From Caryophanales bacterium (GTDB lineage Bacteria; Bacillota; Bacilli; Bacillales; Bacillaceae_J), in assembly GCA_012840465.1 (NCBI GenBank), contig DULJ01000040.1, positions 1 to 64,000 on the forward strand: a DNA stretch of 64,000 nt. The letters run 5' to 3'. The notes beneath the pieces are model-generated. The model ran no database searches and was not told the DNA's origin. It saw nothing but the letters and a program-made list of their open reading frames with translations. A program made the translations under genes and the position numbers. Shown one piece after another: positions 6,104-46,997 of this stretch (within the stretch, counting starts at the first letter, position 1; every line of letters starts with the position of its first letter).

Positions 6104-6234
6104 ACCAACTCTATGAGTAACATGGAACTTATAATCCAGTAAATATCGTTAGATGGAGCGCGGAATGCGGGGAAACCCGCACGTTCCGTGTGGAGCAGGG
6201 GAAAAGCCGGAGATTACATCAAACGCTTACCTAT
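5433..6234 (+). mobile_element. group II intron, 3' fragment (intron A)
   Basis: Only the 3' part remains: the end of the maturase gene, then RNA domain V at 6156-6191 (AGC triad, GAAA tetraloop between GCGGG and CCCGC, then CGTTCCGTG), and a domain VI-like segment ending in CTTACCTAT near 6234. The 5' RNA domains and most of the reverse transcriptase are missing, because the left boundary is the insertion-sequence end. It cannot move by itself. Confidence 0.75.
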
Positions 6235-6725
6235 TGCTGACGATAGCCTCGTTGGGCGGAGTCAGATATTGATAATTCTGGCTTCCCGGCTTGGGAGTCA
6301 TGCCCATGTTAAGTTGCAATTCTCTCCATTCCCAACTGCATAACTATGTATTTTTCGATTGCACAAAAGAGATAAAGAACTACGATTTAGTTCTTATGGA
6401 TTATGAATTGACACACAAATGATTAAAGCTTTTGAGCATGAGATTGAGCGAATTTTCATTGAAACAGCCAAGACGGTCTTTACCTTTTAACAGTTTCTGG
6501 TATCGGTCTTGTAACAGATGCCGAACTCTACTATGAAATGGGGGATCCACTGTTAAACAATTAGGTCCTAAAAGGGTTATTATGAGCGTATCTTTAAACA
6601 AAAAAATACGAATTTGCAAATATCCGTTTACAACGCTGGACGTTTCCTTTTAGTCTATTTCAGTTTGATTAATTCTTAAATGTTATCAACCACCACAAGG
6701 CACTTTACAAGTGTAGAAAGTTTTT
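6235..6725. other. degenerate stretch, possible IS110-type transposase remnant
   Basis: No intact gene. Around 6480-6560 one frame reads TVSGIGLVTDAELYYEMGDP, which resembles the helix-hairpin-helix GIG..TA block of IS110-family transposases, flanked by further out-of-frame pieces. It is too short and broken for a firm call. Confidence 0.35.
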
Positions 6726-6983: not shown

Positions 6984-7008
6984 CCTTCCTGCATGTATAA
7001 CTATGTGG

Positions 7009-8409
7009 ATAGGTAAGACCTTGATATTATCTCCGCCTTTTCCCCCCATTCACACCGTACGTGCGACTTTCATCGCATACGGCGTTCCATCAAGAATGAC
7101 CTATTCTCTTACAACTCACAATTCCCAGCGAGAATTCGAAGCTTGTTGACTTTCCGTATAGCCTTTTCTTCTAATCCAAGTTTTTGTTGATAATATTGGA
7201 TTGTTTCTACATTAGTGGCGTGAATTAGTTTGTGTACTTCTGTTGTGACAAACAAAAGATTATCATATTTATCCGTACCGCATAGGCTTCTTGGTACTTT
7301 ATGATGTGCTTCCATTTGTCCAATTTCTAATTCACATTTCGTAATTGCGCATTTTCCATTTTGTCCTACATACAGCGAAATCCGGTTGTCGTTGTATTCC
7401 GCTGATTGTCCAGGAATGGGATTTTCCAATAGGTATTAGAGAATCTTATGGTTAATAAGGCGTAAGTTCTCATGAATTTTCTGTCTGCCGGCTTTAGTGC
7501 ATCGACAGTACTCGTTGAAAAACCCATTGGGGGTCTCATTTTAATTCCCCATATTGGAAATAATGCTAAGCCACTAATATAAATGGTTTTATGGTTGTAC
7601 ATGCCATAAAACCGCTGATAAGCTAGGCTTTTAGTTCCATCACGGCTTCGATTTCCTTTCAGGCTGTTTCTTTCGTGTCTTTTCGCTTGTTGTTCTCGTT
7701 GTATTAGTCAGCCTTCATTACTGTTGGCTTTTCTTAGTCATACACGAACCTAATCATCATTGTGAATATAAGTTTTATTGTCTTTCCTGACTAGTGGCTA
7801 TCCCTCAACAATGTTTCCATTGCTTCCCCGGTACTGTGCCACCACTCTCACTAGCATAAGATGGAGTGCGTGTCTTAGAGACTTTCCTCCATACCATTTC
7901 ATCGAATGTAAATTCTCCGTGTTACCAGCTTTCCACGTTCCAACAATTTTATCTGTGCATATGCTTTTGGTGCTTCCTTTTGGCCTGTTTGCTTGATAAC
8001 GCCTATAACGTTATAAGGACTTTCATAACGAGGAATTTTACTCATCCCCACAAACCCTGCCTCCGCAGGAGATAGCATTTCTGCTCTCTAAATTTTTAGA
8101 CCCGTACATTCGGAAATTCGTCAGACCGCATTGTTTTGGTCATTCTCACCATGAGCATTTTATAGACCCCCCGGCCTATCATGTATTCGACCACCTCTGG
8201 TTCGCTTTTCCTCGGCTTCACCCGTTAGGAATACACTCTTAGCCGACTTCACCGTGCTCTGCACATTCGGTATTCTACAATACCGCCTGCACATCGGAGT
8301 ATCAGGGCAGGCGTTTCAGGGCGTTACCCCTTCATTCCACCTGTCAAATTGTTGGTTCTAATTGATGTAGTCAATTAGGCAATGCTTTTCACATTGCAAC
8401 GTGTCGTAC
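7009..8409 (-). mobile_element. group II intron B, internally deleted
   Basis: On the minus strand the 5' end reads GTACGACACGTTGC (from 8409) and leads into a domain I-III-like structured segment (for example GAGGAAAAGCGAACC and GCGGTCTGACGAATTTCC). Near 7700 come remains of the maturase gene. Domain V follows near 7075 (CGCCGTATGCGATGAAAG then CGCACGTACGGTG), and the 3' end is CTTACCTAT at 7009. At 1.4 kb it is about half the usual length because most of the reverse transcriptase is gone. Intron A shares the same 3' layout, so both belong to a similar class. Confidence 0.72.
7109..7720 (-). pseudogene. intron B maturase, C-terminal remnant with HNH domain
   Basis: Frame pieces read GNRSRDGTKSLAYQRFYGMYNHKTIYISGLA, split by a frameshift from KIPFLDNQ/NPIPGQSAEYNDNRISLYVGQ. 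The last intact part (7109-7429) is an HNH domain with CAITKCELEIGQMEAHHK and VHKLIHA. The reverse transcriptase domain is absent. The break lies near 7430. Confidence 0.7.
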
Positions 8410-14829: not shown

Positions 14830-15160
14830 TTGACAAGAATGCAGTTCATCCGTAAGATTATAATCAATGCAAAAATAATATCGAAAAAGATCGAACCTAT
14901 AACGGAGAAAAGTAATTAAGATTACACATGGACAGAGAGGAAATGCCATAGGCTGAAAGCATTTCTCCATGATGATTTAATGAAGAACACTCAAGAGGTT
15001 CCACTCTGAAATAAACTATAGTAGGAGCTGGACGTGTCAGGCGTTATCTGAACAAAGTGGAAAGGCATATGGATTTAATTTTATTGCTTTTTCAACTAGG
15101 GTGGCACCACGGGTAAACTCTCGTCCCTACATTTAATGTAGGGGTGGGAGTTTTTTTGTT
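14830..15160 (+). promoter_or_regulatory. T-box leader (histidine) of hisS-aspS with promoter and terminator
   Basis: A promoter TTGACA (14830-14835), 17-base spacing, TAAGAT (14853-14858) precedes a long structured leader. The specifier is CAC (14988-14990), a His codon. The T-box AGGGTGGCACCACGGG lies at 15098-15113, followed by a terminator (15116-15157: GTCCCTACA with TGTAGGGG, then TTTTTTT). Uncharged tRNA-His should favour the antiterminator and transcription of hisS and aspS. Confidence 0.92.
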
Positions 15161-22443: not shown

Positions 22444-22530
22444 TAACTTTATTCAGCAGAGTCTCCTCATTGCACGAAATAGGATCCAATCTGAGGCTGA
22501 ATGAAGTTAAAGCTTTCGGCATATTTGATA
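22444..22530 (+). repeat. intergenic repeat A, copy 1 (cymR leader)
   Basis: TAACTTTATTCAGC is followed about 40 bases later by GCTGAATGAAGTTAAAGC and TTTCGGC, ending in ATATTTGATA right against the cymR ribosome site. The inverted CAG/CTG arms form a hairpin. Copies 2 and 3 at 30652 and 39339 share the same start, inverted arm and tail. Confidence 0.75.
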
Positions 22531-30489: not shown

Positions 30490-30859
30490 TTGACAAATAT
30501 TGCGGTAAATGACTAAAATAGTTTAGTATGAAAATAAACGAATGATGACGGAACGAAGTAGATTACAGCCCGTTTATAAGAGAAGGGTTTCCCTAGGCTG
30601 AAAGGAACTCTAAATGAAGAGTAATCGAATGCTACTCCAGAGTGCTTAGTATAACTTTATTCAGCTGAATAAAGCAAAAGCTTCCGGGCGCAAATGCGCC
30701 TTGGCGTATTGGATAAACCTAAGCCGTATTACCGCGTTAAGGTTATGAAAGGTGATGAAAAATTTCCGCATTGCAGGGATTTTCATAATCAGGGTGGTAC
30801 CGCGAGGACATAATAGCTCTCGTCCCTGCAGTTTACTGTAGGGACGAGAGCTTTTTTAT
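30490..30859 (+). promoter_or_regulatory. T-box leader (alanine) of alaS with promoter and terminator, carrying an inserted repeat
   Basis: Promoter TTGACA (30490-30495), 18-base spacing, TAAAAT (30514-30519). The stem I region contains a GCT (Ala) specifier at 30631-30633. The T-box AGGGTGGTACCGCG is at 30791-30804. The terminator is a 17-base stem (30815-30831 with 30836-30852) followed by TTTTTT. Between stem I and the T-box lies intergenic repeat A copy 2, which lengthens the variable middle of the leader. Confidence 0.92.
30652..30717 (+). repeat. intergenic repeat A, copy 2 (inside alaS T-box leader)
   Basis: TAACTTTATTCAG joins CTGAATAAAGCAAAAGC directly, making a tight palindrome, followed by TTCCGGGCG, CAAATGCGCCTTGGCGTATT and GGAT. 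It matches copy 3 at 39339 in both the inverted arms and the GGGCG...GGCGTATT tail, but lacks the middle spacer. Confidence 0.75.
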
Positions 30860-30883: not shown

Positions 30884-33520
30884 ATGAAAAAATTAACTGC
30901 TGCCCAAATTCGACAAATGTACCTTGATTTCTTTAAGGAAAAAGGGCATACTGTGGAACCCAGCCGTTCCTTAATCCCCCATGAAGACCCAACTTTATTG
31001 TGGATTAACAGTGGTGTTGCCACATTAAAAAAATACTTTGATGGACGTGTTATTCCTGAGAACCCACGTATTTGTAATGCTCAGAAGTCCATTCGAACAA
31101 ATGACATTGAAAATGTAGGTAAAACAGCAAGACATCATACATTCTTTGAAATGCTTGGTAATTTCTCAATCGGCGAATATTTTAAAAAAGAAGCGATTGA
31201 ATTTGCATGGGAGTTTTTAACGGGTGAGAAATGGCTTGGACTTAAGCCAGAAAAATTATCGGTTACGATCCATCCTGAGGATAATGAAGCATATAACTAT
31301 TGGTTAAACGATATTGGCATTCCAGCAGAAAGAATTATTCGTATTGAAGGCAACTTCTGGGATATTGGGGAAGGTCCAAGTGGTCCGAATACAGAGATTT
31401 TCTACGATCGTGGCGAAGAATTTGGCAATGACCCAAGCGACCCTGAGTTATATCCAGGGGGAGAGAATGAACGATATCTTGAAATTTGGAACCTAGTTTT
31501 CTCAGAGTTTAACCATAACCCAGATCATACTTATACGCCACTTCCTAAGAAAAATATTGATACAGGAATGGGCCTAGAGCGTGTAGCATCTGTTATGCAG
31601 GAAGTTCCAACAAACTTTGATACTGATCTATTTATGCCGATTATCCAGGCAACAGAAGAAATTTCAGGTCAAAAATATAATGAAAGCACGGAAAAAGATG
31701 AAGCCTTTAAAGTAATTGCTGACCATATCCGTACCGTTACTTTTGCAGTTGGTGATGGGGCCCTCCCATCAAACGAAGGTCGCGGCTATGTATTACGTCG
31801 TTTACTGCGCCGTGCCGTTCGTTATGCGAAAAAGATAAATATTAACCGCCCGTTTATGTTCGAACTAGTACCAGTAGTTGGCGAAATTATGGTCGACTTT
31901 TATCCAGAAGTAAAAGAAAAAACGGAGTTTATTCAGAAGGTTGTCAAAAATGAGGAAGAGCGTTTCCATGAAACATTACATGAAGGCTTAGCGATTCTTT
32001 CTGAAGTTATCAAAAAAGCGAAGGGGCAAGGAAGCACTGTCATTCCTGGTGAAGATGCCTTCCGTTTATATGATACGTATGGCTTCCCGTACGAGTTGAC
32101 AGAGGAGTATGCCGAAGAAGAAGGCATGACGATCGACCAAGAAGGCTTTAATGTAGAAATGGAGAAGCAACGCGAAAGAGCACGCAGTGCCCGCCATGAT
32201 GAAGGTTCAATGCAGGTTCAAGGCGGTATCCTTGGCGATATTAAGATTGAGAGTAAATTTATCGGTTATGACCAAGCTGATGCAGAGTCTTTGATTGAAG
32301 TTGTTATACAAAACAATGATTATGCCCCGCATGTACAAACTGGTGATGAGGCTCAAATTATTTTAGATGTGACACCGTTCTATGCTGAATCAGGCGGTCA
32401 GATTGCTGACCAAGGCTATTTGGTGAATGACCAGCTTACACTTTGTGTTAAAGATGTTCAAAAAGCACCAAATGGACAGCATCTTCATTCCGTTGTTGTT
32501 GAAAAAGGGATTTTAACTAAAGGCGTGAAAGTAACAGCAAAAATTGATGAAGTAAAGCGTAATGCGATTATTAAAAACCATACTGCTACACACTTGCTAC
32601 ACCAAGCATTAAAGGATGTTCTGGGCAATCATGTAGCACAGGCCGGTTCTTTAGTATCACCGGACCGTCTTCGCTTTGACTTCTCTCATTTTGGACAAGT
32701 AAAGCCGGAGGAACTAGATCAAGTAGAAGCAATTGTTAATGATAAAGTTTGGAACAGCCTTGAGGTTGAAATCTCTCAAAAAGGCATCAAAGAAGCAAAA
32801 GAAATGGGAGCAATGGCCCTATTTGGTGAGAAATACGGAGATATTGTTCGGGTTGTTAAAGTGGGCGATTATAGTTTAGAGCTTTGCGGAGGCTGTCACG
32901 TATCGAATTCAGCCCAAATCGGTTTATTCAAAATCGTTTCCGAATCTGGTATCGGTGCAGGAACTCGTCGTATCGAAGCCGTTACTGGTCAAGGTGCTTA
33001 TCTTTTAATGAATGATCAAATCAATATCCTAAAAGATACAGCTAATAAATTAAAAACTAATATAAAAGAAGTACCTGCTAGAGTTGAGGCTTTGCATAGC
33101 GAACTTCGTCAGCTCGAGCGTGAAAATGAATCATTATCTGCGAAATTAAGCAATATTGAATCATCCACCCTTGTGAATGAAGTCAAAGAAATCAATGGGG
33201 TAAAGCTGCTTGCAAAAAAAGTTAATGTTAAAGATATGAATAGCCTTCGCACAATGGTAGATGACTTAAAAGGAAAATTAGGTTCTGCGGTTATCATCCT
33301 TGGAGCAGTAAGTGATGATAAAGTAAATCTAACAGCTGGAGTAACAAAAGATTTACTAGAAAAGGGTTATCATGCCGGTAAATTAATTAAAGAGGTTGCG
33401 ACGCGTTGTGGCGGCGGCGGTGGCGGCCGTCCAGATATGGCACAAGCAGGTGGGAAAAATCCGCAACAGCTGGTAGATGCCTTAAATTATGCGGAAGAGT
33501 GGATGAAATCTATTTCGTAA
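30884..33520 (+). CDS. alaS: alanyl-tRNA synthetase
   Basis: Charges tRNA-Ala and edits Ser/Gly mischarging. It has 878 residues. The N-terminal class II core starts with [18 protein letters not shown]. The editing domain holds the zinc site HTATH (from H566) and CGGCH (C668-H672). The C-terminal C-Ala/DHHA1 part ends in the glycine run [22 protein letters not shown] lies seven bases before the ATG. It is controlled by the Ala T-box. Confidence 0.97.
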
Positions 33521-39338: not shown

Positions 39339-39466
39339 TAACTTTATTCAGTAGAAGTCTACTGAATAAAGTTAAAGCCTCCGGCGGATGCCTCAGATTT
39401 TCAAAGGTAGTTTTTCGAGCTTGCTCGAAAAAATCTGGGCGTAAATACGCCAAGGCGTATTTGATT
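39339..39466 (+). repeat. intergenic repeat A, copy 3 (greA leader)
   Basis: TAACTTTATTCAG, a short spacer, CTGAATAAAGTTAAAGC, CTCCGGC, an inserted hairpin (TTTTTCGAGCTTGCTCGAAAAA), then GGGCGTAAATACGCCAAGGC and GTATTTGATT. This is the longest of three copies, and it ends about 15 bases before the greA ribosome site. Confidence 0.78.
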
Positions 39467-46704: not shown

Positions 46705-46738
46705 ATGTCAGACTCCTCGCATAAATATTGTGATTATA

Positions 46739-46789
46739 TCGTAATTATTACGATTTATATCCATTGTAATTATATCGTAATTATTACGA
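46739..46789 (-). promoter_or_regulatory. two tandem Zur boxes upstream of znuA
   Basis: TCGTAATTATTACGA occurs at 46739-46753 and again at 46775-46789, each inside a longer identical repeat of about 24 bases, centres 36 bases apart. It matches the Bacillus Zur operator (palindromic TCGTAAT-ATTACGA), so zinc repression is expected. Confidence 0.88.
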
Positions 46790-46997
46790 TTTGCAACATA
46801 AAGTTTTTACTTTAATTTTAATTATTAGAAAAATGATTGTACAGTGTTAAGGTTTATGTTGAAAAGAAAGATAAAGATATTCATGACCATCAGATGGAAA
46901 AAGTAACAATTCATTAACAGGACAGACACAGATATTACTTTCATGGCATAGGATTGGTAATAGGCAAATACCTACTATGTTAAATGGAGGTGAGTTT

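Follow-up and report, generated by a model that had tools for sequence, protein, structure and literature searches.

A short copy of a dispersed, hairpin-ended element in the stem II loop of the alaS T-box leader of a Schinkia species

T-box riboswitches carry lineage-specific insertions in every domain, of which stem II is especially diverse, with stem II regions spanning about 10 to 200 nt; the structure and function of these insertions are unknown (PMC7583486). In a typical stem II, contact with the codon-anticodon duplex is made by an S-turn (PMC7583486). Stem II of the Bacillus subtilis alaS leader is without an S-turn, and the alaS T-box of Clostridium acetobutylicum is without both stem II and stem IIA/B, yet it is efficient in vitro (PMC4695836). 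The loop of stem II is thus probably among the least constrained places in the alaS leader described here. In Streptococcus pneumoniae, a dispersed BOX element lies between two trp T-boxes, and RNA-seq indicates that regulation is retained (PMC3049150). Among mobile elements, those of the IS200/IS605 type have hairpins close to their ends and target the lagging-strand template for insertion (PMC6006769).

The stretch of DNA analysed here (64,000 nt in total, hereafter the window) contains alaS as an open reading frame for an alanyl-tRNA synthetase of 878 aa (30884-33520, + strand, as are all features of this locus given below). The protein is 96% identical to AlaS of Schinkia azotoformans LMG 9581, and the window can therefore be assigned to a Schinkia species, which is represented by one genome. 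The alaS leader is a genuine T-box riboswitch: cmscan against Rfam matches RF00230 at 30536-30830 (95.9 bits against a gathering score of 93; E 8.4e-20) and covers model positions 1-219, leaving a long run of nucleotides unaligned midway through stem II. The specifier, GCT (Ala) at 30631-30633, fits the downstream synthetase gene and is supported by comparison with about 80 other alaS leaders, and both this codon and the T-box assignment had been recognised correctly in an earlier sequence-only reading. Stem II is formed by GCTTAG (30644-30649) and CTAAGC (30719-30724), the latter side being supported by folding and by comparison with congeners. The stem IIA/B segment, CCGTATTACCGCGTTA (30724-30739), follows from the Rfam alignment, and its CGTTA is conserved in the leaders compared. 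The T-box sequence AGGGTGGTACCGCG (30791-30804), evident in the sequence and in the Rfam match, precedes an intrinsic terminator with its U tract (30815-30857), whose perfect 17-bp stem, 10 pairs of which are GC, occupies 30815-30852. A promoter-like site, TTGACA-18-TAAAAT, lies at 30490-30519 and agrees with the consensus at 11 of 12 positions, a supportive call given that 1.1 such sites are expected per shuffle.

In its stem I with GCT specifier, short stem II without an S-turn, stem IIA/B, T-box and terminator, this leader resembles the B. subtilis alaS T-box (RF00230; PMC4695836). It differs in that a 60-nt copy of a mobile repeat is seated in the apical loop of stem II, a feature that about 80 other alaS leaders lack. 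The window has a second T-box (14890-15131, 124.5 bits) upstream of hisS-aspS, which is without an insert.

The inserted repeat (30655-30714) is a short, internally deleted copy of a hairpin-ended Schinkia element, as judged from a covariance model (R1) and from the empty sites of congeners. Its left end is a perfect 20-nt palindrome, CTTTATTCAGCTGAATAAAG (30655-30674), which folds as a hairpin with p about 0.9; a right-end hairpin is predicted by the minimum free energy (MFE) fold at 30686-30701. R1, which was built from nine repeat copies including the alaS copy itself, matches the insert at 30653-30714 (E 6e-5 over 115 kb), and the repeat core GCTTCCGGGCGCAAATGCGCC had no match in 100 shuffles of the window. 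Two other copies are present in the window, where the R1 matches start at 22445 and 39340. One (22447-22529, +) lies upstream of an Rrf2/CymR-like gene and is common to S. azotoformans while absent from a second congener, G002. The other (39342-39465, +) is of a three-hairpin form and lies 26 nt before greA; no copy stands at the syntenic place in G002. Covariance model searches found at least 129 copies besides the alaS copy in this genome, including these two. The proposal, made from the sequence alone, that a dispersed repeat lies in the alaS leader is borne out by the model match, the shuffles and the genomic copies. Its description as a complete copy was wrong, the alaS copy being internally deleted and 60 nt long compared with 115-250 nt elsewhere. 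The span 30652-30717 proposed for it does contain the insert, with bounds that need correction to 30655-30714, and TATAA at 30650-30654 belongs to the target side. Its placement between stem I and the T-box was correct and can now be narrowed to the apical loop of stem II.

Elsewhere in the window, pieces of group II introns occur between 6156 and 8360 (RF00029 at 6156-6241, +, and 7003-7087, -; RF02004 at 8159-8360, -). They adjoin genes for YD/RHS-type repeat proteins with a 274-nt duplication (at 2264 and 10655, 91% identity). Separately, two tandem 30-nt units with ATCGTAATTATTACGAT palindromes lie between divergent open reading frames at 46727-46792 and look like a putative paired operator.

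The alaS site could be read in its empty state in two congeners, S. azotoformans (G001) and G002; no alaS leader was recovered from the assembly of G003. The empty sites are GAGTGCTTGG-ATTTAAAG-CTAAGCC in G001 and GAGTGTTTAG-TGTTTAAAA-CTAAGCC in G002, and the occupied site in this genome reads GAGTGCTTAG-TAT-AA[CTTTATTCAG...GGAT]AAAC-CTAAGCC. In the congeners, the 5' side of stem II is GCTTGG (G001; one change, giving a G-U pair) or GTTTAG (G002), and the loop carries ATTTAA or GTTTAA, respectively. Both congeners thus have TTTAA where this genome has TATAA directly left of the insert. This substitution, together with length differences of 1-2 nt from the congeners, means that the precision of insertion is not provable at alaS itself. 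The distance from the specifier to CGTTA is 96 nt here, compared with 15-36 nt in about 80 other Bacillaceae alaS leaders.

These comparisons bear directly on whether the segment could be an ordinary, lineage-specific elaboration of stem II with no relation to mobile DNA. No T-box domain varies more than stem II, where insertions have been described (PMC7583486). Nevertheless, this sequence, ends included, recurs at no fewer than 129 other places in the genome, and both congeners lack the insert in an otherwise alignable leader. The dispersed copies and empty sites refute such an elaboration, and we give it almost no credence. Nor does the palindrome occur as a normal stem II/III, which in distant genera would have spoken against the sequence-only reading: about 80 other alaS leaders are without it. 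The sequence-only view of a mobile repeat inserted in the leader accordingly stands, with two congeners empty at alaS and many dispersed copies whose orthologous sites are empty.

The repeat family comprises copies of nested size: about 250 nt, about 193 nt, a three-hairpin form of 115-126 nt and short derivatives of 60-100 nt, to which the alaS copy belongs. The form of about 250 nt has Bacillaceae-1 RNA (RF01690) as its centre, in about 18 copies scoring up to 77 bits (L182, L183, L185, L186, L189, L191, L192, L194, L195, L196, L199, L201, L202, L206, L210, L213, L221 and L222). The alaS copy is without this module, an Rfam covariance scan giving no RF01690 match in it. Rfam lists RF01690 as an sRNA, whereas here it is the central module of a mobile repeat; from its sequence setting, Bacillaceae-1 RNA in Schinkia seems to belong to a mobile element and not to be a gene in its own right. 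No Rfam family spans the whole element, Bacillaceae-1 in its centre being the only match. The whole element was not found in phage and plasmid collections, one of its inner patterns is absent from viral contigs, and we found no description of the family in openly licensed papers. Among the other genomes searched, at least 57 copies are present in two congeners, with one in G002, and 7 in one genome of another family; the other 56 genomes had none. A clostridial plasmid, CP026602.1 (L346 3001-3250), has 40 nt that match the interior of the long form at 93% identity; about 110 nt away lie the remains of a TnpB zinc ribbon (PF07282, E 1e-8). This match raises a possible link of the element to TnpB-bearing insertion sequences, which we treat as a lead. 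At L115, a copy of the element is immediately followed on its right, from 1637, by repeat-like sequence of another kind, GAAAAGCGCAAGCGCC....

Copies that are common to more than one species differ in their internal losses, both at the cymR-like site and at the codY site. In the hslU-codY gap, S. azotoformans has a 63-nt copy (L163 1064-1126) and this genome a 102-nt copy at the syntenic site (L207 1001-1102); from their sequences, these are the same site with different internal deletions. Given these unequal losses at shared sites, a copy can become short through deletions where it stands. The alaS copy may have arrived short or may have shrunk later, either order being compatible with the data.

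The manner in which the family moves can be read from sites that are empty in a congener. Insertion is precise, 3' of a TTTAA-like sequence and without target duplication, at seven copies (L168, L111, L165, L189, L107, L104 and L121) whose orthologous empty sites were taken from G001 or G002 (L104 and L121 against G002), some other sites being too diverged to judge. TTTAA stands directly left of 44 of 71 copies, compared with 0.4% of window positions, whereas no sequence is strongly preferred on the right. The element begins with CTTTATTCAG..CTGAATAAAG and ends with CAAATACGCCAAGGCGTATTTG, with subterminal hairpins at both ends and no terminal inverted repeats (TIRs). Orientation follows leading-strand GC skew in 22 of 25 copies over the 1.24 Mb counted in S. 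azotoformans (p 1.6e-4) and in 57 of 71 copies of the present genome (G000). Furthermore, 129 of 169 within-contig pairs share the same orientation, a value reached in none of 5000 randomisations.

End hairpins, a directional target, the absence of TIRs and of target-site duplications (TSDs), and a replication-strand bias together point to single-strand transposition of the IS200/IS605 type. The family most likely behaves as a non-autonomous element of this type (HUH-Y1), whose target rule is drawn from IS608 and ISDra2. The resemblance to non-autonomous IS200/IS605-type elements and REPs (PMC6006769) extends to insertion 3' of a short sequence and to high intergenic copy number. The Schinkia element differs in being longer than REPs, in having ends that match no insertion sequence examined, and in that no partner transposase was found in four drafts: of 16 Y1 loci in these draft genomes, which break at repeats, none has matching ends. 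The genome's own Y1/TnpB insertion sequences likewise share no ends with the element.

The missing partner would also be expected if the family belonged to another class, whether REP/RAYT-type or, for instance, a MITE with TIRs and TSDs or a serine-recombinase element. This genome does encode a RAYT-like Y1 protein, and GTAG stands 5' of the central hairpin in some copies. The RAYT-like gene (190 aa, L142 1291-2120) has several copies of another palindromic repeat, GGTGCCTGTCCCC, next to it and was accordingly rejected as a partner. A REP sequence mobilised by a RAYT would be a hairpin of 20-65 nt with a GT[AG]G foot, whereas these elements are 60-250 nt long. A classical MITE moved by a DDE transposase is rejected because the ends, CTTTATTCAG and TTTGAT, are not inverted repeats and the empty sites show no duplication. 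Taken with the directional target and orientation, these features leave membership of another class a minor possibility, though a real one, and we retain the IS200/IS605-like assignment.

In gaps between co-directional genes, our gene-context survey counted 35 sense and 7 antisense copies (p 1.5e-5); many copies end 13-32 nt before a start codon, and copies lie in the leaders of cymR-like, greA, glyA-like, codY and gcvT genes. This distribution would suit an exapted regulatory module, in which sense copies in 5' leaders alter expression through RNA stability, access to the ribosome-binding site or folding kinetics, and the insert tunes the alaS T-box. Sense bias is equally expected from the replication-strand bias combined with the co-orientation of genes and replication, which confounds its use as proof of RNA function. 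It is also expected from the target itself, because TTTAA is found in stop codons and in terminator U-tracts: in about ten cases, the AA of the TAA stop of the gene upstream comes from the element. Sense bias therefore need not mean RNA function. In addition, copies at shared sites erode through internal deletions. In the gcvT leader (L192 599-1240; G000 C51 about 223085-223726), and again as TTTAA in U-tracts would allow, a copy begins in the U-tract of the terminator behind a glycine riboswitch and stops 32 nt short of gcvT, and another copy lies upstream of this riboswitch.

T-boxes as such do not appear to be favoured targets. A copy lies inside 1 of the 17 T-boxes in this genome, and 0.8-1.2 copies would be expected at random in 17 leaders of 250 nt, given at least 131 copies over an assumed 12-18% of intergenic DNA. 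Nothing beyond chance is needed to account for this number, and selective targeting of T-boxes is rejected. Considering this together with the confounded sense bias, we regard an exapted module as unlikely and favour chance insertion of a mobile element into the alaS leader.

Predicted folding gives differing pictures of what the insert does to the riboswitch. In a local fold, stem II is closed over the insert hairpins with p 0.86-0.93, and when the fold is extended to 30795 this value is 0.31. For the whole 260-nt leader, the MFE fold gives stem II p 0.05 with the insert and 0.92 without it; about 8 pairs are predicted to join the insert to the leader. ViennaRNA folding leaves out the T-box tertiary fold, the K-turn, the pseudoknot and the co-transcriptional order, and because MFE folds with the insert and without it led to contradictory conclusions, we did not base a decision on them. 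The full-leader values would be in keeping with a leader inactivated by a broken stem II, so that alaS is constitutively terminated or read through. Against this, the promoter, specifier, T-box and perfect 17-bp terminator are all kept, the local fold retains stem II, and the insert carries no terminator of its own. Moreover, alaS is generally essential. Inactivation consequently seems very improbable to us.

Instead, the switch can probably still work with an insert at this spot. The insert is probably tolerated because stem II of Bacillus alaS is without an S-turn; in this group, stem II would be a minimal hairpin that makes no such contact with tRNA, and the two insert hairpins may form an independent knob at its tip, leaving stem I, specifier, stem IIA/B, T-box and terminator untouched. 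The insertion is most likely tolerated and near-neutral, and a kinetic or regulatory effect on the alaS T-box, such as the altered folding speed or readthrough proposed in the sequence-only reading, is possible. The word 'tolerated', used in the same reading, is apt in that the rest of the switch is intact, with support that is indirect.

We are now able to propose an account of how this leader arose. The ancestral stem II loop would have offered a TTTAA-like target, as ATTTAA in G001 and GTTTAA in G002 suggest. A hairpin-ended element that inserts precisely 3' of such sequences, without target duplication, would have entered it, most likely by single-strand transposition of the IS200/IS605 (HUH-Y1) type into the lagging-strand template. 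We consider it probable, with good confidence, that the segment 30655-30714 came about when, in this lineage, a short derivative of a non-autonomous, HUH-Y1-like element present in many copies was inserted into the alaS stem II loop, with the switch retained.

As in the pneumococcal case (PMC3049150), a dispersed repeat that folds independently, here by prediction, lies in a T-box-controlled 5' leader. BOX is situated between two T-boxes, whereas the Schinkia repeat is inside a single T-box domain, and no relation between the repeat families is apparent. A repeat in a T-box-controlled leader thus has precedent; what is new is insertion within the switch with empty sites that can be read, and not a new kind of switch. 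One may speculate that hairpin elements transposing through single strands are a general source of unexplained T-box stem II insertions, and that sense copies such as those at alaS and gcvT became working parts of riboswitch leaders, although we regard this as a long shot. The locus provides a concrete origin for one lineage-specific T-box insertion. As its empty state is still readable in sister species, the effect of the insertion on the T-box is measurable against a natural ancestor. A second and possibly more general result is a genus-wide repeat family with Y1-like habits, of which Bacillaceae-1 RNA appears to be a module.
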